Source: Flavobacteriales bacterium (GTDB lineage: Bacteria > Bacteroidota > Bacteroidia > Flavobacteriales_D > Crocinitomicaceae). Taken from it: a stretch of 64,000 bases of DNA. Both the position numbers and the translations under genes were made by a program. The stretch is taken from contig CANGJM010000002.1 of the NCBI GenBank assembly GCA_947454525.1, positions 124,001 to 188,000 on the forward strand, given 5' to 3'. A model generated the notes under the pieces. The model was not told the origin of the DNA, did no database searches, and saw only the letters and a list, made by a program, of their open reading frames with translations. Position 1 is the first letter of the stretch; the number at the start of each line of letters is the position of its first letter. Shown piece by piece: positions 38,969 to 49,250 of this stretch.

Positions 38969-38993
38969 GAAAGAGGAGAAATGCTCCTCTTTC
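38969..38993. terminator. Perfect hairpin between convergent genes
   Basis: GAAAGAGGAG and CTCCTCTTTC form a perfect 10-bp stem with a 5-nt loop, between the coiled-coil gene (plus) and the beta-helix gene (minus), touching the latter's stop codon. There is no strong T-run on either side, so termination is likely but may be inefficient. Confidence 0.65.
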
Positions 38994-40390
38994 TATGGTT
39001 GAATGAGTCGCATTTTCGTTCCGTTTTCTCCTACGAGCAAGAGTATACCTGGACTGGCTTCAGTTTTGAACATGTTTTCACCTTCCGTAAGGGAAAAAGT
39101 GGAGATTTTCCTTCCCATTCCGTCGTAAAGTTGAACGACTTGATTTGTTTCACTGATGAATTTCAAATCATTCGTTGACATGAAAAATGCTTGGAATTCA
39201 GATGTTGATGTTGCTTCGATATTCGCTGATCCACCCAAGTCTATTTTAACGACGTATTCCAATACATTTTGACACGAATCGTCGTAAATCGCATAGTTGA
39301 CAAGTCCACGAGTGATGTCGTCGTAACCATCGTAAATCAATCCTTCGATGTACGTTGAATCGGAGGAACAAAAGCAATTCGCATTCACATCGAAATTTTT
39401 ATCCGTGCCATTTTCTAAATTGTACAGGGTGTTATTGCAAATAATGTTGTCTGAAATATTCATTGAATTTGGTGACCATCCGGTAATCACAATTCCTCGG
39501 TCGTTATTCAAAATTTGATTGTTGGTAATGATGCTATTATCTCCCATGCGCATCGCTGTTCCATTTCCTTGAAAGAAACAATTGTTAATGTTCATGGAAC
39601 CTGATGCATCAATTCCGATTTGATTGTTTTCGAAACTACAATTGACGATGGTAATTCCATTCGCTTCCGTCACGGCATTTGTGTTGTTATTGAAAATACA
39701 ATCGGTTATAGTTCCTGGTGAACCTACGATGTTGTTTTCATTTCCATCAAACGTACAATTCGAAACATTGATGGAATTCGACCACGTGAAAGAGCAGAAA
39801 TTATTTAGAAATTGACAATTGGAAGCTGTTAAGGTGCCATAGGAAATTTGTGCTGCGTTTCCAACGCCATTCTCTTCGAACAAACAATTTGTATAAACCA
39901 TGTCCGCATTGAATTGAACTGCGTATTGGTTATTTTTAAATTCACATCCGTTGAAAGTATAACTTACTCCTGGTTCTGCAATATCGTTGTGCAAGCCGTA
40001 GAAGGAATTCGTCAACTTGAAGTGGTCCATTTCCACGAGTCCACCTTGACTTCCTTTGATGCGGATACCCAACCAATTTGACTCATTGGCAGGAATCGAT
40101 GATGTGAAGGTGATCGGACTACTTGTTGTTCCAATGGCATTCAATGTTCCACGCACTTCTAAATAAATGAAATTTCCAGTATTGAAGCTTTGGTCAGCCG
40201 TTACACGAACGATTGTGCCCGGTTCGATTGTTAGTGTTTTACCTGGGAAAATCACCAATGACTGTGTTAATAAATAAGGACTATTGGCAGCGGTCCAAGT
40301 GGTATTTGCGTAAATACCTCCACCAACAACTGTTTGAGAATGACTTGTTCCGATAATAAATAGAACGATGGTAAGGAAAAATGCTTTCAT
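38993..40390 (-). CDS. Secreted right-handed beta-helix protein with T9SS-like C-terminus
   Basis: The track start (40447) gives an awkward leader; the ATG at 40390 gives the clean signal peptide MKAFFLTIVLFIIGTSHSQ, so I prefer it (465 residues). Residues about 60-330 are parallel beta-helix repeats rich in Asn (NCSFENNQIGIDASGS, NNCFFQGNGTAMRMGDN), with a LTIEPGTIVRVTA entry typical of these folds. The last 70 residues (VVQLYDGMGRKISTFSLTEGENMFKTEASPGILLL) resemble a type A T9SS sorting domain. It is last in the minus-strand run from the nuclease locus, 67 bp after the DUF4249 gene. Substrate binding or adhesion is possible; no catalytic residues stand out. Confidence 0.8.
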   Translation of the reverse strand: MKAFFLTIVLFIIGTSHSQTVVGGGIYANTTWTAANSPYLLTQSLVIFPGKTLTIEPGTIVRVTADQSFNTGNFIYLEVRGTLNAIGTTSSPITFTSSIPANESNWLGIRIKGSQGGLVEMDHFKLTNSFYGLHNDIAEPGVSYTFNGCEFKNNQYAVQFNADMVYTNCLFEENGVGNAAQISYGTLTASNCQFLNNFCSFTWSNSINVSNCTFDGNENNIVGSPGTITDCIFNNNTNAVTEANGITIVNCSFENNQIGIDASGSMNINNCFFQGNGTAMRMGDNSIITNNQILNNDRGIVITGWSPNSMNISDNIICNNTLYNLENGTDKNFDVNANCFCSSDSTYIEGLIYDGYDDITRGLVNYAIYDDSCQNVLEYVVKIDLGGSANIEATSTSEFQAFFMSTNDLKFISETNQVVQLYDGMGRKISTFSLTEGENMFKTEASPGILLLVGENGTKMRLIQP

Positions 40391-40457
40391 GATAAAAATG
40401 ATGAGTAACATGAAAGGAACAACTCTATCATAAGATTGTTCGGCCAACTAAATTTTT

Positions 40458-41393
40458 TTATTCCACACAATAGAGTGTATCATAACACGGAGAGAATCCA
40501 GCCCACACTCCGAGTAATCCCGGGATGTTTGATGGAACATTAATCGGCGTAGAAAATGGACTTGAAGCGGAATTCAGTTGTGCATATTTTTTATCGTAAA
40601 ACGAAAACACCTGTTGATCCATTTTTGAAAATTTTACGACTACGGAATCTCCCAAACGGTACATTCTTTTGAATTCCTTTAAATGGGTGGTGTCCTTTCG
40701 TTTTAAGGGATTCTCGTAATAAAACTCAATGGTTTGACCATCAAAAAACTGATCCGAAAAGAATCCGCCAAATCCACGTTTATAGATATCGTCTAATTCT
40801 TCGCCATTCGCTTTGAGGTTAATGCGCTTCACTTCCCATTTATATCCATCAAATTGATTGGCTGGATCGCTTAAACGTGCCCAAGAGTAACCATATTCTA
40901 GATTTCCCGCTACCGGTTTCCAGTAAATTGAATCCAGGGGAGTGGGATTGGGTAAATGAGTGGTTCCTTTGAACGATTTCCCTTGATGTTTGATTTCCAA
41001 GGTATAGGAGGTGTTTGCTTGCGCAACTAAGGCAATCGAACTATACACTTTAATGGGAAGAAGTAAGGCTTCGTTCCAATCTAAACGAAGCATTTCAGCT
41101 ACCTTTTTTTGACTGTTTATCGGAAGTTCAGCTATCGTAAACAGGGATAGGGGAAACGTGTCGTTGCCAGAAATGACGTTTAGCTGTGCATCATAAACAA
41201 AACGAGAAAGGTATGCAGCAAGATCACTTGTTTCATAGATATTTGCGCTTTGGGAAAGGAGTACAATGGGGTTTCCTCCTGTTTCAATGATTCCATCAAC
41301 GACTAATTGGTTTTGATAGCTGGGAATATCAATGTTTACTTCCTTGGTGCAGGAAAAAAAGACAATGAATAACAAGACCGTCCAAACTTTCAT
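40458..41393 (-). CDS. DUF4249-type lipoprotein
   Basis: The 311-residue protein has a lipoprotein signal with lipobox FFSC (Cys about 15) and opens TKEVNIDIPSYQNQLVVDGIIETGGNPIVLLSQS, the pattern of DUF4249 proteins. Further family-like blocks are GKSFKGTTHLPNPTPLDSIYWK and VKFSKMDQQVFSFYDKKYAQL. DUF4249 genes usually sit beside TonB-dependent receptors, as here (the receptor is four genes upstream in the same operon). It probably forms part of the outer-membrane uptake complex, but the exact role is unknown. It starts 17 bp after the phosphoesterase gene. Confidence 0.87.
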   Translation of the reverse strand: MKVWTVLLFIVFFSCTKEVNIDIPSYQNQLVVDGIIETGGNPIVLLSQSANIYETSDLAAYLSRFVYDAQLNVISGNDTFPLSLFTIAELPINSQKKVAEMLRLDWNEALLLPIKVYSSIALVAQANTSYTLEIKHQGKSFKGTTHLPNPTPLDSIYWKPVAGNLEYGYSWARLSDPANQFDGYKWEVKRINLKANGEELDDIYKRGFGGFFSDQFFDGQTIEFYYENPLKRKDTTHLKEFKRMYRLGDSVVVKFSKMDQQVFSFYDKKYAQLNSASSPFSTPINVPSNIPGLLGVWAGFSPCYDTLYCVE

Positions 41394-41410
41394 GTGTTAA
41401 AGATACGCGA

Positions 41411-42313
41411 TTATTCGATGCTGTGTTTGCGGCAAGAAACATGAGTCGCGCTGATGTCCATGCGTCCCAAAAAGATTCCACCAAATCCAACTTGATGCAC
41501 TACCGTTTTCTTTCCTCCTTTATTTTCAAAAGTGGCGGGTGCTTCCATGAATGTGTGGGTGTGTCCACCAAGAATTAAATCGATGTGCTCATTTTCAGCC
41601 GCTAATCTGACATCACTAGGTTTCGAGGCCTCTGCATAGCTAAAACCTAGGTGAGATAAACATATGATCAAATCACAGCCTTTTTCACGTAGTTCACTTG
41701 CTATCTCATTGGCAACACTGATTGGCTCTAAGTATTTTGTTTTTCCAAATTTCTCTGCGGGAACCAAGCCATCTAATTTGATCCCAATGCCAAAAACACC
41801 AATTTTTAGTCCCGCTTTACGAAATATGTGGTAGGCTTTGGTTTGATCCTTTAATGCTGTCTCAGAAAAATCATAATTCGCACATAAAAATGGAAAGTTG
41901 GCGAATTGTTTTGCGTTCAAAAAACCATCTAAGCCAATGTCGAAATCATGATTCCCCATCGTTGCGGCATCATATTTCATGGCGCTCATGAGTTTCATCT
42001 CTAATTCTCCATGGAAGATATTGAAGTAGGGTGTTCCTTGAAAAATATCTCCGGAATCTAGGAGAAGAACATGTTCCTCTTGTTGGCGAATTTCTTCGAT
42101 TAATTTTGCCCGTTTTGCCACTCCACCCTTGTTTGCGTATTTGGGATGATTAGCTGGGAACGGTTCTATTTGCGAATGCGTATCGTTCGTGTGTAAAATG
42201 ACCAACTTTTTCTCCTTCAAGGTTTGAAAAGAGCGATTCAAACGAAAAGAGGAAAGCAGCACGAACGCACTGGAACCGAGAATACTTGTTTTTAGAAAAC
42301 TACGTCTTTTCAT
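41411..42313 (-). CDS. Metallophosphoesterase half of a split 5'-nucleotidase (UshA-like N-domain)
   Basis: The 300-residue protein carries the catalytic domain of 5'-nucleotidases, with all dimetal motifs: LHTNDTHSQIEPFP, LDSGDIFQGTPYFN, MGNHDFDIG, ICLSHLGFSY and LILGGHTHTF. The start at 42313 gives MKRRSFLKTSILGSSAFVLL, a twin-arginine-like signal with the RRSFLK motif, so it may cross the inner membrane folded. It lacks the substrate-binding C-domain, which is encoded just upstream as a separate gene (4-bp overlap). Expected reaction: release of phosphate from nucleotides outside the cytoplasm. Confidence 0.9.
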   Translation of the reverse strand: MKRRSFLKTSILGSSAFVLLSSFRLNRSFQTLKEKKLVILHTNDTHSQIEPFPANHPKYANKGGVAKRAKLIEEIRQQEEHVLLLDSGDIFQGTPYFNIFHGELEMKLMSAMKYDAATMGNHDFDIGLDGFLNAKQFANFPFLCANYDFSETALKDQTKAYHIFRKAGLKIGVFGIGIKLDGLVPAEKFGKTKYLEPISVANEIASELREKGCDLIICLSHLGFSYAEASKPSDVRLAAENEHIDLILGGHTHTFMEAPATFENKGGKKTVVHQVGFGGIFLGRMDISATHVSCRKHSIE

Positions 42314-43020
42314 TTCAGTTGGATCCGTTTTTCCGGTGAAGCAATGAGTTCTCCTTGTAGTTGACATTCTGACATAAAAATATCGCGCAAAAGCTGCGGT
42401 TTTTGTTGTCGATCGATCGCGTCAAGAAAAAAGTCCATGCGGTCACCACCATTTGCTAAATAATCACTGGTAATCACCCAAAAATGTGTAGTGTTTTCTT
42501 TTAGACCGTTTAAGACGAGTTTTCCTTGAATGAGCTGCGCATTGGAAATCGGTTCACCACCAGATTGATTCAAATACGCTTCAATTTTTGTTAAACTTGA
42601 AATAGGCATGCGCATCCACACAACTTGGTTATCGAAGGGCATGAGTCGAAAAATATCACCACGCGTAACCTTTCCTTTTCCGATGGCAGATCTTAATCCA
42701 CCAACGCTCAACAAGCAGAAAACGGGTTCACTCATGCGTACTGTCCGCGTTTGATTGGCAAAGAGTGCGTCCGCGGTCCAATTTCCAAGAAGGCTATTTG
42801 GTCTTCCACTTTCGAAATCGATAGCGGCTGTTGCCAAAACAGTACTCATGACTTTTTCAACCGAGTCCTTGTAAGGTTGAATAACTTCTTTTATGTCCGT
42901 TTGGTCTTGATTATTTTCAAGAATGGCTGTTTTCCCACTTGTGGGTAATATGGTGAAATGAGAAGAGCAAGCCACAAGGCTTGCTCCAATCAAAAAAAGT
43001 ATACTGTTTATTCGGATCAC
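42310..43020 (-). CDS. Substrate-binding half of a split 5'-nucleotidase (C-terminal domain lipoprotein)
   Basis: The 236-residue protein matches the C-terminal domain of UshA-type 5'-nucleotidases: GNWTADALFANQT, VGGLRSAIGKGKVTRGDIFRLMPFDNQVVWMRM (the substrate-stacking region) and ITSDYLANGGDRMDFF. A lipoprotein signal precedes it (IGASLVACSS, Cys 18). It has no metal site of its own and must cooperate with the next gene's phosphoesterase, which its 3' end overlaps by 4 bp. Its start overlaps the nuclease stop (ATGA). The order (C-domain gene first) rules out a simple frameshift of an ancestral fused gene. Confidence 0.9.
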   Translation of the reverse strand: MIRINSILFLIGASLVACSSHFTILPTSGKTAILENNQDQTDIKEVIQPYKDSVEKVMSTVLATAAIDFESGRPNSLLGNWTADALFANQTRTVRMSEPVFCLLSVGGLRSAIGKGKVTRGDIFRLMPFDNQVVWMRMPISSLTKIEAYLNQSGGEPISNAQLIQGKLVLNGLKENTTHFWVITSDYLANGGDRMDFFLDAIDRQQKPQLLRDIFMSECQLQGELIASPEKRIQLK

Positions 43021-45281
43021 TCGACGATAAATTCGCGTTGAACTTGACCGAATGCTGTTCCAACTTGTAGAAGATACATTCCAGATTTGAATTCAGTTGT
43101 TCCCAATTCTAAAACAGGAACTTGAACATTAGATGAAGATTTAATTACTCTTCCTTGCATATCTGTAATGGTGTATTCAACGATTTCTAGTCCATTTACT
43201 TGTGCAAACAGTTTACCTGAAGTAGGAACTGGGAAAACGGAGAAATTAGCTGCTAATTTCTCATCGATTCCTGCGTCACAAACCAAATAAGACATGTTCG
43301 CGAAATTCACGTGACAAACAAAATTAATGGAATCTATGTATGGATTTCTGTTCGCTTGTTTACTGAAAATAAATTCGTTACGTGCAATTTCATAATTATC
43401 AGGTAGGTCATTGTAGTGCCATGTTTTCAAAGACTCTTGACTTTGATTGGAAGGCAATTGCCAGTTGTTACCGCCTTGTCCATTATATGCAGTCGCCATG
43501 TAGAATATTGAACGTGCCGCATTTCCTTTTTGAGCAGCGCGTGGTTCGTAAACCAATTGATTTCCGCTATAACCAACGCTTCCTTCTAAGTATGTAAATA
43601 CGACAGTTCCATCGATATCCATTAATGGCAAGTTACTTCTTGGTGTATTTGCTTGTTGCAGGTTTGTTGGCCATAAGTTGTGTTGGTCATTGTATTCTGG
43701 TTGCTCAGGATTGTCACATGGGTATGTCGGCATCCAAGAGTGACAATAAGAGTGCTCACGAGAATATCCTACTGCTGTCCAATCGAAAGGCTCGTCAAAT
43801 ACTTTTCGCTCTCCTGAATAAACACACGTGACGAATGATTGTCCATTTGTAGTATCACGAATCTCAAATTGATTCATCAAGGTTGTTTTATAATTGAAAT
43901 ACGAAACAACAGTGTGAGGATTAATCAAGGCACTTAAATCACTTAAAAAAGTTGATGCACCAGAACTAATTCCTGAGTAGTAGTTTCCAATTTGTTGTCC
44001 TTGACTAGTCACGTTTCCGATTGCCGGTGTTGTTGTTTTGTAATTCTCAAATCCAGCAGGACCATTAAATGCGTAAACAGCAAAATGGTAGTTTTGATTA
44101 GCGATGATTCCACGTGGTGTGAATCCCGTTCCGCTTCCGATGTATGCCACACGTGCATCACCAACAACATCTCCTCTTTTGTAGCTTGTGCCATCCGTTG
44201 GCATTCCTGTTACAGCTGCACCATTTTTCCAAAGGACAATATAATTATCAGCATTCGTTCCTGCCGTGTATTGTCCACCAACGGTATATGCTTTTACCAA
44301 TGGGAAAGTTAAGTTCGTCGGATTCGTAGTCGGCTCTGTAGCCAAGTTGTTGGTTCCAATTGCATACAAGTGGATGATGTACGGATTCTCATCACTATCA
44401 TTGTTTGCAATGGAAATTGTTGCTGTGCGCGTACCTGTTCCTGTAGGGGTAAATGTCAAAGAGTAATTATTACTTCCTAATCCAGCCACTGTTCCTGTTG
44501 TTAAGTTTATTCCGAATTCAGAAGCATTTGTACCTGTAAAGGTAACACCTGAAAGTGTCAAACTGGAAACTCCAGAATTTTCGATGCTTACACTTGTTGA
44601 GGCTGCTGTCCCAACCACATATGTATCGTTGTTTAACACTGTTGTGCCATTTACTTTCACATTGATTTCTCTTGCAGGAGCAACGTATGCAAAGATATCC
44701 TGCAAGTTTCTTGGGATGATTTGGTAATTCGCATTGAATTGTCCTAATTCGCCAATAATGGAAATAGGTCCAGTTGGAATCGCTGTCCCGTCGATGTTCG
44801 TGGATCCATTGATGCGCACATCGAAAGTTGCCGTTCCGTTTGAAACTTGTACGGTGCTATTTCCTGTTGCGAAGGTGCCGGTTTGAACAAAAGTTACATT
44901 GTCAAAACGGACTAATTGACTTTCTAAAGCCTCCGTTCCACTTGAGAAAGGAATGGTTTGAGCTTGCGGCAAAACACCTGCTCCATGGTTGATAAAACTA
45001 TTTGTTGGTGATAATTCCAATAAACCGCTAAAGTCGAATAAGACACCAGTTGCAGTAATTGAGTCTCCACGCTGAACGGATGACAATGAACTTCCGTAAC
45101 ATGCGATTCCGGCTGAACCATCTTGGATGTAACGAATGTTTCCAAGTTCGCTACCGTTTGTTGCTACACCCGAAACGGTAACAGTTTGTCCAATTCCTAA
45201 GTTTCTTACCTGAGAAATGTTTTGTGCTTTTCCACTGAATACAGCGAAAAAGGCTAGGGTACTAAGTATTACTTTTTTCAT
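43017..45281 (-). CDS. Secreted modular endonuclease I with T9SS C-terminal domain
   Basis: The 754-residue secreted enzyme has a signal peptide (LSTLAFFAVFSGKAQ), an OB-fold-like N-terminal region (about 20-200, VRNLGIGQTVTVSGVAT), a choice-of-anchor/Ig-like domain (about 205-310, SVSIENSGVSSLTLSGVTF), a fibronectin-like region (about 315-425), and an endonuclease I catalytic domain (about 430-665). The nuclease motifs are SREHSYCHSWMP and YNDQHNLWPTNLQQANTPRSN. The tail FSVFPVPTSGKLFAQ to the end fits a type A T9SS sorting domain. It starts 2 bp after the TonB receptor and overlaps the 5'-nucleotidase gene, consistent with a role in degrading extracellular nucleic acid. Confidence 0.9.
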   Translation of the reverse strand: MKKVILSTLAFFAVFSGKAQNISQVRNLGIGQTVTVSGVATNGSELGNIRYIQDGSAGIACYGSSLSSVQRGDSITATGVLFDFSGLLELSPTNSFINHGAGVLPQAQTIPFSSGTEALESQLVRFDNVTFVQTGTFATGNSTVQVSNGTATFDVRINGSTNIDGTAIPTGPISIIGELGQFNANYQIIPRNLQDIFAYVAPAREINVKVNGTTVLNNDTYVVGTAASTSVSIENSGVSSLTLSGVTFTGTNASEFGINLTTGTVAGLGSNNYSLTFTPTGTGTRTATISIANNDSDENPYIIHLYAIGTNNLATEPTTNPTNLTFPLVKAYTVGGQYTAGTNADNYIVLWKNGAAVTGMPTDGTSYKRGDVVGDARVAYIGSGTGFTPRGIIANQNYHFAVYAFNGPAGFENYKTTTPAIGNVTSQGQQIGNYYSGISSGASTFLSDLSALINPHTVVSYFNYKTTLMNQFEIRDTTNGQSFVTCVYSGERKVFDEPFDWTAVGYSREHSYCHSWMPTYPCDNPEQPEYNDQHNLWPTNLQQANTPRSNLPLMDIDGTVVFTYLEGSVGYSGNQLVYEPRAAQKGNAARSIFYMATAYNGQGGNNWQLPSNQSQESLKTWHYNDLPDNYEIARNEFIFSKQANRNPYIDSINFVCHVNFANMSYLVCDAGIDEKLAANFSVFPVPTSGKLFAQVNGLEIVEYTITDMQGRVIKSSSNVQVPVLELGTTEFKSGMYLLQVGTAFGQVQREFIVE

Positions 45282-45283
45282 AA

Positions 45284-48034
45284 TTAAAATTGAATTGCAA
45301 GTGAAAGATTGAATCGGAACCCACCTCCAAACATGACGGTAGCTGATTTCGAATCAAAGGTATTATATATGTCATTCGCATTATTTGTTGCGTCAGAAAT
45401 ATATGTTTTATTTAAAGCATTTGTAATTGTCCCGGTTGTTAGTAAACTGAAGGATTTAAATGGAATTTTATATCCTGCAAAGACATTCAATAGGGCATAG
45501 GATGGCATTTTCCAAGAATCTCTTCCACCATTTACTCCTTGCAGTGTGAATGGGTCAAAGTTTGAATAATAGCGATCGAAATACTGTAATTGAACTTTCA
45601 GGTAAAAGTTTTTAAATGGTTCATAGCGCATTGATGCCGCCATGGCAGTTTGAGCGGCATCACCTACGTGAACACCTTTCGCATCGAAACTAAATTGCAA
45701 AGAATCATATTGTGGGACAATTACTGTTTTAGATGAATTCCAATACCATTGTCCGACAGAGACCATCACATCTCCAGATAATTTCTTGCTCAATTTGAAA
45801 GCCGCATCGAATTCACCTCCCAAGTGTACGGCATCCATTCCGTTGATGTTTACACGAATGAACTCTGTTGGGTCGTTTGGATCCGGAACAGCAACACCGT
45901 AAGGAAAAGGTTTATTTTTCCAATTCGTTGCATATGCATTGACATTAAATCCGAATTTCTCTTTGGCATAATTGTATCCACCTTCCGCAGAGAGGATCTT
46001 TTCATTGACGATTTCACCGAAAAAACTATTTGTATTATTATCAATGACATTCGAGAATTGCGGAGTGCGGTTTAAGAATCCAACATTGACATACGCCGTT
46101 GCATTTTTCTGTACTTTATAACTTAATCCGGATTTAAAGGTAAATCCAGGGAGAAATTTCCAATCTGTAGCGTAGTACTTTAAATCTTTATTGCTCGCAT
46201 CATACGTTGTTCCGTTGTAGGTTATTGTATCCAATGCACCAATTCTAAGAATCGTGTCACCTAAATCGAGAACTCGTTTTTGGAATCGATCTACTCCTTT
46301 ATACCCATTCAAAATCGCAGATAGGTTGACGAAAAAAGAGAGTTTTTTATCGGTGTATTCCATTTGACCAAAGGCACCGGACCATTGCACAATTCCATCG
46401 CGGTCAGCATTAAATGCATTTTTAGCAATTTTATCTCCAACTCGTTGCATTGGATCCGCATCGTTTTTATCAGCAGTACTCACAAAATAGTCACCGCCTA
46501 AAAGATTGGTGATGACTTGGTAATGTGAACCTTGATAATAACGGAAGTCAACTCCACCGGATAACTCAATTTTTTTATTGTATTGGTAATTAAATTGTCC
46601 TAAATATCCAGCCCAGAAATGGTTGTTCATACTTTCGTAAATGATTTGACTGGACTTAATTTCAGTTGGTGAATAAATGGGGTCGATGTTCGGAGTACCA
46701 AATAGTGAGTTCACTTTATTTTCATGAATGACAAGGTCCCAGTTAATTGTACCGGTAGTATCGCGCAATAAAGCTGATGAATTAAAAATACTTGTCCCCC
46801 CACCTCGTCCAATGGATACGTAGGCAATATTGGAAATGGAAAGTTTGTCGTTAACTGTCCAAAAATCCTTCAAAGTAAATTGAGGTTTTGTATAGTAATT
46901 CATGCGCTCACTAAGAACTTCTTTCTTTCCACTAATGGAATCAGTTTGATAACCCCAATGTTGGTTAAAACGAATTCCCATGTCATAGAAATTTGCATTC
47001 GAATCAACGATTGCACCTAAATTTCGGGCTGTTTTCGCATCAAAATATTGAATGGCTTGATTGTAAGCACGCTGTCCATGCTCTTGTGGTGCTGCAAATG
47101 CGGATAAGGTCAATAAATGTTTGTCCACTTTCTTTGATACTTTGATGTACCCAAATTTCCCTTGACTTGGAGTTCCATATACCCAACCATCCGCTTGTTT
47201 ATAGGATGCAGAAAACGTCAATCCCCATCCGGACTTCGTCATTCCGGTATTATAGGAAAGTGTAGAGCGCAATAAATTCCCTGTTCCGTATTCTTGGCGA
47301 AAGGATCCACCTGGCTTGTTTGAGACACCTTGTGTGATGATATTTATAGTTCCACCAATGGACGGCATCGCAATTTTAGTCGCTCCGAGTCCACGTTGAA
47401 CTTGCATTTGAGCAGTAATGGCATCTAGTCCAAACCAATTGGACCAATAAACAGCGCCATTTTCCATGTCGTTCACGGGAACACCATCGATCATAACCCC
47501 AACGTTTCGTTGATCGAATCCACGTACATTGATTCGTGCATCTCCATCTCCACCACCTTGTTGTGTCGCATAAACTCCAGGAGTTCCATTTAGCAACATC
47601 GGTAAATCACGAGAACCAAGTTCTTCAGTAATTTTTTGCAGGGGAATTTTGGTGACAGCCACAGGGACATTTTGAGAACCCGCTAAATTACCAATGACTT
47701 TGATTTCGCGGTATTCTTGACTTGCACCGATGTAAAAATTGACTGTCATTACTGGTTTAGAAACTTGAATTTCCTGAACCATTGAATCAAATCCCATCAT
47801 TTTAAATGTAATGGAATAATCGCCATAGGTCACATCGGTCATTTCGTAAATCCCTTGTGAGTTGGACATGGCTCTTTTCATCACCACACCTTTATTGTTG
47901 TAAAGGGTGATTTTAGCGCCACCTAAAAGTTGGTTCGTAGCATTTTCACTGACTTCACCAGTGATCTTTGCAGAAGCCTGACTGAAACTCCATTCAGCAA
48001 AGCACGCGAAAAGAATAAGAATAAAATATTTCAT
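45284..48034 (-). CDS. TonB-dependent receptor with carboxypeptidase-like N-terminal domain
   Basis: The 916-residue outer-membrane protein has a signal peptide (ILILFACFAEWSFSQ), a carboxypeptidase regulatory-like domain (about 22-105, KITGEVSENATNQLLGGAKITLYN), and a plug domain (about 110-235, LPMLLNGTPGVYATQQGGGDGDARINVRGFDQRNVGVMIDGVPVND). A long 22-strand-type barrel follows, ending in aromatic F. It imports a substrate using TonB energy. The 2-bp gap to the nuclease gene and the neighbouring 5'-nucleotidase suggest nucleotides, nucleosides or phosphate-bearing fragments. No SusD partner is adjacent, so it is not a standard SusCD glycan system. Confidence 0.93.
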   Translation of the reverse strand: MKYFILILFACFAEWSFSQASAKITGEVSENATNQLLGGAKITLYNNKGVVMKRAMSNSQGIYEMTDVTYGDYSITFKMMGFDSMVQEIQVSKPVMTVNFYIGASQEYREIKVIGNLAGSQNVPVAVTKIPLQKITEELGSRDLPMLLNGTPGVYATQQGGGDGDARINVRGFDQRNVGVMIDGVPVNDMENGAVYWSNWFGLDAITAQMQVQRGLGATKIAMPSIGGTINIITQGVSNKPGGSFRQEYGTGNLLRSTLSYNTGMTKSGWGLTFSASYKQADGWVYGTPSQGKFGYIKVSKKVDKHLLTLSAFAAPQEHGQRAYNQAIQYFDAKTARNLGAIVDSNANFYDMGIRFNQHWGYQTDSISGKKEVLSERMNYYTKPQFTLKDFWTVNDKLSISNIAYVSIGRGGGTSIFNSSALLRDTTGTINWDLVIHENKVNSLFGTPNIDPIYSPTEIKSSQIIYESMNNHFWAGYLGQFNYQYNKKIELSGGVDFRYYQGSHYQVITNLLGGDYFVSTADKNDADPMQRVGDKIAKNAFNADRDGIVQWSGAFGQMEYTDKKLSFFVNLSAILNGYKGVDRFQKRVLDLGDTILRIGALDTITYNGTTYDASNKDLKYYATDWKFLPGFTFKSGLSYKVQKNATAYVNVGFLNRTPQFSNVIDNNTNSFFGEIVNEKILSAEGGYNYAKEKFGFNVNAYATNWKNKPFPYGVAVPDPNDPTEFIRVNINGMDAVHLGGEFDAAFKLSKKLSGDVMVSVGQWYWNSSKTVIVPQYDSLQFSFDAKGVHVGDAAQTAMAASMRYEPFKNFYLKVQLQYFDRYYSNFDPFTLQGVNGGRDSWKMPSYALLNVFAGYKIPFKSFSLLTTGTITNALNKTYISDATNNANDIYNTFDSKSATVMFGGGFRFNLSLAIQF

Positions 48035-48066
48035 CGTTTTTCGAGTAGGACAATAAACTGTCGTAC

Positions 48067-49125
48067 TTATCTTAAGATGATTTTACGGATCAATTGTTGT
48101 CCGTTAACATCTGTCATTCGAATGATGTAAACACCGCTGAAATCGCTCAAATCTAAAGAAATAACTGGTTTTGAACCGATGTTTGCTTGCGTGTAGATCG
48201 TTTGTCCAAGTGAGTTTAATACTTGAATTTTACGAATATTTCCGTTGCTTTTGATGTTTACAAGTCCATTGCTTGGATTTGGATAAACACTTAATGAACT
48301 CACTTCATTTTCATCTACCGCAGCAGGATTACATGAACAGTTGTGTGTTCCGAGTGAACTCCAGTTACCATCAAGAATAGGATTTCCACTTGTTCCAAAA
48401 AGCGTATCTCCGTTTGCATCTAAACGAACGATCACTGGTGGAATGGAATCGTAATCTAAAAGTGGGTCAAAAAATGATGGATTCGTTGTTGAACCTTTCA
48501 CGATCGTTGACTTACGAATCATGGAATGGTCTTTCGTAATTAATACACCTAAACCAGTACTGTAAGGAAACTGTGTTGACCATGCTCCATCATTACCAGA
48601 AGAAGTTCCTGTTTCATTCGCTGGATTCTCTCCGATTTTCCCGAAAAGATCCACAATGGCGAATCCAGGTACATTGGTTGCATTGATTAAGGTTGTCGCT
48701 GTAGAAGGTAACGTTCCCTTTGCCAACATAATGGCATCGTTTCCATTCCAATAAAATGAATTTGATGTATTATATACAGGACAATAGAATCCATCTGCAC
48801 GAGCTTGCAATGAATCCCATATTGGAGCTTCTTGTCCTGTTCCGTTTGGGTCTTGTTTGTCAAGAACGGCAACATATACGTCATGTGCAGCGATGGTTCC
48901 AGATAATTGAATGGAATTCGCAACTGTTGCAGTTGTTGCACCATTGGAATAACGCGCTACGAAATAACCATTTAGATTAATTGGATTGGCCGTTGGGTTA
49001 TAAATTTCCAAGGCTTTGTTGTTTGACCATCCTTCTACGTACTCAGAAATAAATAATTCAGAACAATTTTGAGCAGTTGCATTCAGTGTTAAAACACTTG
49101 TGATAAACAGTAAAATTTTTTTCAT
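48067..49125 (-). CDS. Secreted lamin-tail-domain protein with T9SS C-terminus
   Basis: The 352-residue protein has a signal peptide (LLFITSVLTLNATAQ), a lamin-tail domain (about 20-165: CSELFISEYVEGWSNNKALEIYNPTANPINLNGYFVARYSNG), and a C-terminal type A T9SS sorting domain (SVYPNPSNGLVNIKSNGNIRKIQVLNSLGQTIY). Lamin-tail domains are frequent in secreted Bacteroidota nucleases and phosphoesterases, but no catalytic domain is visible here, so it may act as a binding or anchoring protein. It is first in the minus-strand operon, 32 bp before the TonB receptor. Confidence 0.85.
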   Translation of the reverse strand: MKKILLFITSVLTLNATAQNCSELFISEYVEGWSNNKALEIYNPTANPINLNGYFVARYSNGATTATVANSIQLSGTIAAHDVYVAVLDKQDPNGTGQEAPIWDSLQARADGFYCPVYNTSNSFYWNGNDAIMLAKGTLPSTATTLINATNVPGFAIVDLFGKIGENPANETGTSSGNDGAWSTQFPYSTGLGVLITKDHSMIRKSTIVKGSTTNPSFFDPLLDYDSIPPVIVRLDANGDTLFGTSGNPILDGNWSSLGTHNCSCNPAAVDENEVSSLSVYPNPSNGLVNIKSNGNIRKIQVLNSLGQTIYTQANIGSKPVISLDLSDFSGVYIIRMTDVNGQQLIRKIILR

Positions 49126-49192
49126 AATCCAATAAAAACAAGCAACACGACTCTTTTCGTTTAACAGTTAGTCATGAAGTCATTATTCTTAG

Positions 49193-49231
49193 CACGTGGT
49201 TTCAGCATAGATGCGTCAAGGAGGACACGTG
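49193..49231. promoter_or_regulatory. Paired CACGTG palindromes upstream of the nuclease locus
   Basis: Two CACGTG sites (49193-49198 and 49226-49231) lie with centres 33 bp apart, close to three helical turns, between the putative -7 element and the first gene. This spacing suits a dimeric repressor or activator on one DNA face, but chance cannot be excluded. Confidence 0.35.
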
Positions 49232-49242
49232 TTAAGTTGAAA

Positions 49243-49250
49243 CAAATTTA
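49243..49250 (-). promoter_or_regulatory. Promoter -7 element of the nuclease/TonB receptor operon
   Basis: The minus strand reads TAAATTTG (exact TAnnTTTG), 117 bp upstream of the lamin-tail gene, leaving a long leader that contains the CACGTG pair. Confidence 0.45.

Follow-up and report, generated by a model that had tools for sequence, protein, structure and literature searches.

A lamin-tail, TonB receptor and nuclease gene trio conserved in the Bacteroidia, probably for the use of extracellular nucleic acid, with a candidate leader RNA

Introduction

The route by which Bacteroidota take up the products of nucleic acids digested outside the cell is unsettled. Some Bacteroidota described as DNA degraders have nucleases that are secreted and nucleotidases in the periplasm (PMC8289736, PMC11495043), and the lamin-tail domain, which is found in secreted DNases, has been linked with DNA binding (PMC4486849). 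In the literature compared here, nucleases and nucleotidases are listed and an outer-membrane importer is not tied to them. A gene cluster in a 2.83 Mb genome, assigned to the Crocinitomicaceae from its closest relatives in the collection (metagenome-assembled members of this family and other Flavobacteriales), raises the question of whether nuclease and importer are encoded together. A sequence-only reading of the window, a stretch of 64,000 nucleotides, had proposed that seven genes at 38993-49125 form one system for scavenging nucleic acid. The analysis suggests that the conserved genes of this aquatic bacterium probably serve to cleave extracellular DNA or RNA and to take up the fragments.

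Gene content of the operon

All seven genes are present on the minus strand, as judged by their open reading frames and domain families. The proposed junctions of 32, 2, -4, -4, 17 and 67 bp are exact, given the starts MKRRSFLK for the metallophosphatase and MKAFF for the beta-helix protein. The extent of the operon holds for the genes, but a promoter and a structured leader RNA place the beginning of the functional unit approximately 120 nt ahead of the first gene. The features are:

49243-49250, minus strand: TAAATTTG, a Bacteroidota-type -7 promoter element (TAnnTTTG), identified from the sequence
49187-49235, minus strand: structured leader RNA, with P1 of 10 positions (9 paired here), a conserved internal loop and a P2 hairpin, identified by covariation (CM score 53.4 bits)
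48067-49125, minus strand: core gene 1, secreted lamin-tail-domain (LTD) protein with a T9SS type A sorting domain (PF00932, PF18962)
45284-48034, minus strand: core gene 2, TonB-dependent receptor (TBDR) with CarboxypepD_reg and Plug domains, not SusC-like
43017-45281, minus strand: core gene 3, T9SS-secreted nuclease with DUF5689, choice-of-anchor D, Endonuclease I and a sorting tail
42310-43020, minus strand: C-terminal (substrate-binding) half of a 5'-nucleotidase with a lipoprotein-type signal, LVAC (PF02872; aligns to solved nucleotidases)
41411-42313, minus strand: metallophosphatase half of a 5'-nucleotidase with a twin-arginine signal, KRRSFLK (PF00149; aligns to solved 5'-nucleotidases)
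40458-41393, minus strand: DUF4249 lipoprotein, optional (PF14054)
38993-40390, minus strand: secreted right-handed beta-helix protein, optional (PF13229)

Co-transcription of the seven genes would be expected from their spacing. The LTD protein and the nuclease have the features of T9SS substrates, with C-terminal sorting domains (PF18962/TIGR04183) and signal peptides; the signal peptides of these two proteins and of the nucleotidase halves were read by eye from the sequence. The N-terminus of the LTD protein is similar to ExeM. A Pfam match to Adeno_E1B_55K on the beta-helix protein was taken to be an artefact of the beta-helix.

It had been claimed that the operon contains no SusD or glycoside hydrolase, and none is seen among the seven proteins. 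Family profile searches gave no SusC-type match for the receptor. With neither a SusD family nor a SusC signature among its seven proteins, the operon is not a SusCD polysaccharide locus, nor does it hold the SusD that the SusCD-like transporter of a phosphate utilisation system would need.

Two nuclease folds in one scaffold

The nuclease of the window contains an Endonuclease I domain (PF04231) that scores 79.9 bits against a cut-off of 25 and aligns with the Vibrio nuclease 1oup. Its EH and HN...RSN catalytic motifs are intact (REHSYCHSWM and DQHNLWPTNLQQANTPRSN), and the same motifs are found in its relatives. Among the proteins examined, the scaffold around the catalytic domain is constant and consists of a DUF5689-type N-terminal region, Ig/fn3-like linkers and a T9SS tail, with DUF5689 falling below the Pfam threshold in some of the Endonuclease I versions outside the Crocinitomicaceae. 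The catalytic slot is occupied either by Endonuclease I or by a NucT-like double PLD domain, in which the HxKxxxxD motif occurs exactly twice. The PLD version is closest to nuclease NucT among NCBIfam models, and to Zucchini-type enzymes and the Nuc endonuclease in the PDB. In one PLD version the DUF5689 region also gives a match to the ExeM/NucH family, and one homologue rich in DUF5689 has a marginal match to an OB-fold model.

That two unrelated nuclease folds occupy one slot argues most strongly for nucleic acid as the substrate. The catalytic domains and motifs are those of the known Endonuclease I enzymes (EndA/Vvn) and PLD nucleases (NucT/Nuc); the difference is that here the domains interchange inside a single T9SS-sorted DUF5689 scaffold. 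Degradation of DNA or RNA is therefore a well supported prediction for the operon, and the protein families suggest that the nuclease would be active at the cell surface. A structure model of the window nuclease has its Endonuclease I part largely below pLDDT 50. Fold comparison of this model was set aside as a functional clue, since the catalytic part is of low confidence and the matches were mainly of Ig/Fn3 type.

The split 5'-nucleotidase

The metallophosphatase half has the motifs HTNDTH, DSGD, GNHD and GGHTH, and the C-terminal half has LGN..ADAL, GGLR, PFDN and ANGGD. In enzymes of the UshA type both domains lie in one chain. Here they are encoded by two genes in reversed order, with the C-terminal half first. 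The two halves may work as a 5'-nucleotidase if they assemble, and their families are consistent with dephosphorylation in the periplasm. A split pair in the same order is found divergent from the trio of core genes in locus L188 and near a paralogous receptor, on the opposite strand, in L176.

In a distant family, a separate operon (L192:4932-14986) encodes a DUF5689 protein, Endonuclease I, a fused 5'-nucleotidase and a paralogous TonB receptor. Taken with the operon described here, this suggests that nucleotidase and nuclease have been joined with a TonB receptor at least twice.

Conservation of the gene set

Only part of the claim that the seven genes are one system survives. The LTD-TBDR-nuclease trio is conserved, but the seven genes are not a single unit, because the nucleotidase is specific to the Crocinitomicaceae and the last two genes are optional. 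By comparative sequence analysis the operon is layered: the trio is the core across the class Bacteroidia, the split 5'-nucleotidase is an addition of the Crocinitomicaceae, and the DUF4249 and beta-helix genes are optional.

The dominant order in the loci of the Crocinitomicaceae is LTD-TBDR-nuclease-NTC-NTN, where NTC and NTN are the C-terminal and metallophosphatase halves of the nucleotidase. In approximately 69 family loci, many of which end at contig ends, the receptor adjoins the nuclease in 64, the nuclease adjoins NTC in 61, the LTD gene adjoins the receptor in 59 and the two nucleotidase halves adjoin in 57. Both halves are present in 49 of the 55 loci with at least 3.5 kb of sequence downstream of the nuclease, compared with 21 for DUF4249 and 12 for the beta-helix gene. 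The flanking genes are also syntenic within the Crocinitomicaceae, so that synteny in this family alone proves little.

The sequence-only reading had called for gene order to be compared in other Flavobacteriales, and this comparison bears it out for the trio. In 20 out of 20 regions sampled across the order, beyond the genus, the LTD, receptor and nuclease genes are adjacent. Three of these regions are from the Crocinitomicaceae and the rest are from other families; most have unrelated flanks, the flanks differing outside the Crocinitomicaceae. A fairer test is provided by the class, because the order-level loci served as training data for the profiles. Forty regions, mostly one per family, were picked across the class by receptor score; 23 with receptors of at least 900 bits were assigned to the trio clade and the 17 lower-scoring ones to paralogs. 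The LTD gene is directly upstream in 21 of the 23 regions with trio-clade receptors and in none of the 17 with paralogous receptors (Fisher p = 1.9e-9). The nuclease adjoins 19 of the 23 and, again, 0 of the 17. The window operon belongs to the trio as defined here, with an LTD gene directly upstream of a receptor of this clade and a T9SS nuclease adjoining. A phylum-level search outside the class Bacteroidia returned only paralog-level scores for the receptor. In the class-level regions, the 5'-nucleotidase pair is absent from trios outside the Crocinitomicaceae, except for the divergently placed pair in L188.

Other genes are found at or beside the trio in some loci. A gene for an AbiEii-type nucleotidyltransferase and a small ORF are inserted between the receptor and the nuclease in one case (L162:6623-7584). 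In three families a small putative lipoprotein of about 150 aa is encoded between receptor and nuclease, or after the receptor (L171:9778-10230, L172:9879-10316, L183:9644-10111); the two of these that were searched have no Pfam match. In L111, which lacks the nucleotidase pair, the trio is followed by a gene for an Exo_endo_phos_3 (EEP) nuclease (L111:13284-14450).

The receptor clade itself is well conserved, with a mean column identity of 44% over 25 sequences. PDB sequence matches cover only the N-terminal domain and plug, and the structure model (pLDDT 62.9, a low confidence) resembles generic small-ligand TonB receptors. As only generic TonB receptors were matched, fold comparison was discarded as a clue to the substrate. 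The trio receptors are more basic than the paralogs (median pI 8.9 versus 6.6, p = 0.02), a weak difference and thus a weak hint of a polyanionic substrate. The receptor may import oligonucleotides or nucleotides.

The leader RNA

The leader RNA is approximately 50 nt in length and begins 7 nt after the TAnnTTTG box in the window. In 57 of 58 leaders the box ends 5 to 10 nt before P1, compared with 3% in shuffled sequence. From this constant spacing the transcript can be expected to start with the hairpin. In an anchored alignment, the internal loop has the 5' strand NNNNCCU[U/A]GA and the 3' strand YGAAAC, with the variable P2 hairpin between them. Tandem G-A/G-A pairs beside P2 are an idea only.

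In 41 leaders, 89.1% of the P1 cells are paired and covariation is 0.658, compared with 0.208 (sd 0.019) in shuffled alignments and at most 0.200 in slid ones. With the other sites included (50 sequences), 91.7% are paired and covariation rises to 0.788, against 0.197 shuffled and at most 0.229 slid. In nine of the ten P1 pairs both partners vary, and P1 is also predicted by RNAalifold from the alignment alone. The folding energy of the window copy on its own is no better than that of shuffled sequence (z -0.68); the covariation therefore carries the claim. Compensatory covariation and a fixed place in the 5' leaders of related genes are what is generally expected of a structured cis-regulatory RNA, and the leader is accordingly put forward as a new candidate. 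Rfam 15 has no family above its gathering threshold for the leaders of the window and 14 further loci, where low-scoring chance matches alone were returned. The possibility that the leader is part of the divergent peptidase gene (49372) was rejected, as the element, like its promoter box, is directed towards the operon, and the other sites are directed towards genes of secreted proteins.

The leader RNA is present in 38 of 56 trio leaders of the Crocinitomicaceae and missing from the other 18; in other families most trio operons do not have it. The model R1 was trained on trio-operon leaders only (40 from the Crocinitomicaceae and one from family f49). It nevertheless found a second strong copy in the genome of the window (G000:C4:125204-125261, L251:1205-1262; 48.4 bits, E 3.7e-7), some 20 nt before the gene of a 621-aa T9SS type B secreted protein that is unrelated in sequence. 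A weak match in the same genome (G000:C10:41132) is inside a coding region and was taken as chance. Many Crocinitomicaceae genomes have second or third R1 sites, and almost every site inspected lies ahead of a gene for a secreted protein, in many cases a large one (CHU_C, SprB or PKD domains); the gene behind the site in L267 was not assigned.

The model R2 found the element in families f3, f45, f49 and f53, mostly 11 to 29 nt before the start of a secreted protein. Most of the RNA-linked proteins of these families have a T9SS sorting domain, and the C-terminal domains recognised are all T9SS type A or B. Three of those in f3 hold true lamin-tail domains (PF00932), and in several f49 genomes the element again leads the trio operon (L175, L274, L301). 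Over 1.36 Mb of loci from the family and its relatives, part of which trained R2, all 39 matches are in the LTD leader. Homology of the RNA-linked INEVSQG proteins (L251) to lamin-tail proteins was rejected, with no Pfam LTD match and an hhalign probability of 1%. In f45 (L306, L309, L310, L297) the RNA and a similar signal peptide (MFSRVVL..IILLTS in L309 and L310) precede differing mature proteins, as if promoter, RNA and signal were a unit combined with different passengers.

We put at about even the chances that this is a new class of cis-regulatory RNA, either a protein-binding element or a riboswitch, at the 5' end of selected T9SS surface-protein mRNAs in the Flavobacteriales and their relatives, which would tie nucleic-acid foraging to that regulon.

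Proposed function and alternatives

Nuclease, phosphate release and TonB import had all been considered represented in the operon. The nucleic-acid part of this claim is strengthened by the two nuclease folds, the intact motifs and the L192 operon, but the pathway has gaps. There is no exonuclease in the operon that would supply the mononucleotides needed by the 5'-nucleotidase, and a search of this genome for a nucleoside permease of the CNT type found none. In the proposed scheme, one promoter would drive the operon, and the transcript would begin with a structured RNA common to other secreted-protein genes. This RNA would most likely control expression in cis, in response to a protein or a small molecule. 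Through the T9SS the LTD protein, which probably binds nucleic acid, and the nuclease would reach the cell surface. Nucleic acid would be cut there, and the dedicated TonB receptor would import the resulting oligonucleotides or nucleotides. In the Crocinitomicaceae, the Tat-exported metallophosphatase half and the lipoprotein substrate-binding half would then remove phosphate in the periplasm. Phosphorus may be the purpose of the operon. We consider it likely that the whole explanation, a surface nucleic-acid utilisation locus including control by the leader RNA, is correct.

Surface nucleases often act in biofilms, and LTD and T9SS surface proteins are typical partners in adhesion, so the nuclease could instead clear extracellular DNA, in biofilm dispersal, DNA-rich matrices or defence, while the receptor imports something else that is set free. 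The leader RNA would fit, being common to T9SS proteins without an obvious nutritional role. Against this, the receptor and the nuclease stay linked across many families, and a 5'-nucleotidase has joined them in one family and is also part of a second type of operon. Defence was rejected as a role of the operon, PADLOC giving no match among the window proteins, and clearance of DNA is on balance unlikely. We give little credence to a PhoB-controlled phosphate-starvation locus as in Flavobacterium, aimed at phosphodiesters generally. F. johnsoniae does induce EndA1/EndA2 and several TonB receptors under phosphate depletion, according to the part of PMC8115612 considered here, a 5'-nucleotidase is present, and PLD enzymes can act on lipids. 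Against this, both nuclease folds point to nucleic acid, there is no SusD, no Pho gene lies beside the operon, and the other RNA-led genes encode secreted proteins without a recognised phosphatase domain.

The leader element, for its part, might be a DNA site, such as an operator or a recombination site, in place of an RNA structure. Its outer arms are palindromic, and the unremarkable folding energy of the window copy would suit this. It is nonetheless a very improbable explanation, as the arm sequences vary freely while pairing persists, G-U pairs included, the orientation is fixed towards the gene, and the distance after the promoter box is constant.

Relation to known systems

The surface nucleic-acid utilisation locus proposed here shares the logic of the SusCD polysaccharide utilisation loci, with a surface enzyme, a TonB receptor and a periplasmic enzyme. 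It differs in having no SusD or glycoside hydrolase and a receptor that is not SusC-like, and in exporting its enzymes by the T9SS. The phosphate utilisation systems (PUS) of Flavobacterium also place a TonB transporter beside enzymes that release phosphate or cleave phosphodiesters. However, in the portion of that paper covered (PMC8115612), PUSI and PUSII rest on SusCD pairs, the receptor-nuclease-LTD trio is not described, and F. johnsoniae EndA1 and EndA2, which combine fn3, LTD and EndoI domains, are listed as orphans. The DNA-foraging loci of Izemoplasma and DNA-degrading Bacteroidota likewise have secreted nucleases, lamin-tail proteins and nucleotidases (PMC8289736), but TonB is mentioned 0 times in the main text of that paper and the Izemoplasma loci use ABC transporters. 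Candidate leader RNAs of the Bacteroidota, including Flavo-1, Bacteroid-trp and the structured 5' regions of F. psychrophilum (PMC2864571, PMC9723704), are similarly structured and some are in mRNA leaders; neither Flavo-1 nor any other Rfam family matches this hairpin, which is associated with genes for secreted T9SS cargo.

The sequence-only reading knew of no account of this exact set as one system, and no description of the gene set was found in the open-access literature. Within the same literature, this is also true of the trio as a unit, the catalytic swap, the leader RNA and any RNA element tied to genes of type IX-secreted proteins. A receptor clade accompanied by a secreted nuclease of one or the other of two unrelated kinds offers a candidate importer that can be tested, and an RNA that is so strongly covarying and so selective for T9SS genes would offer a direct handle on the control of that surface proteome.
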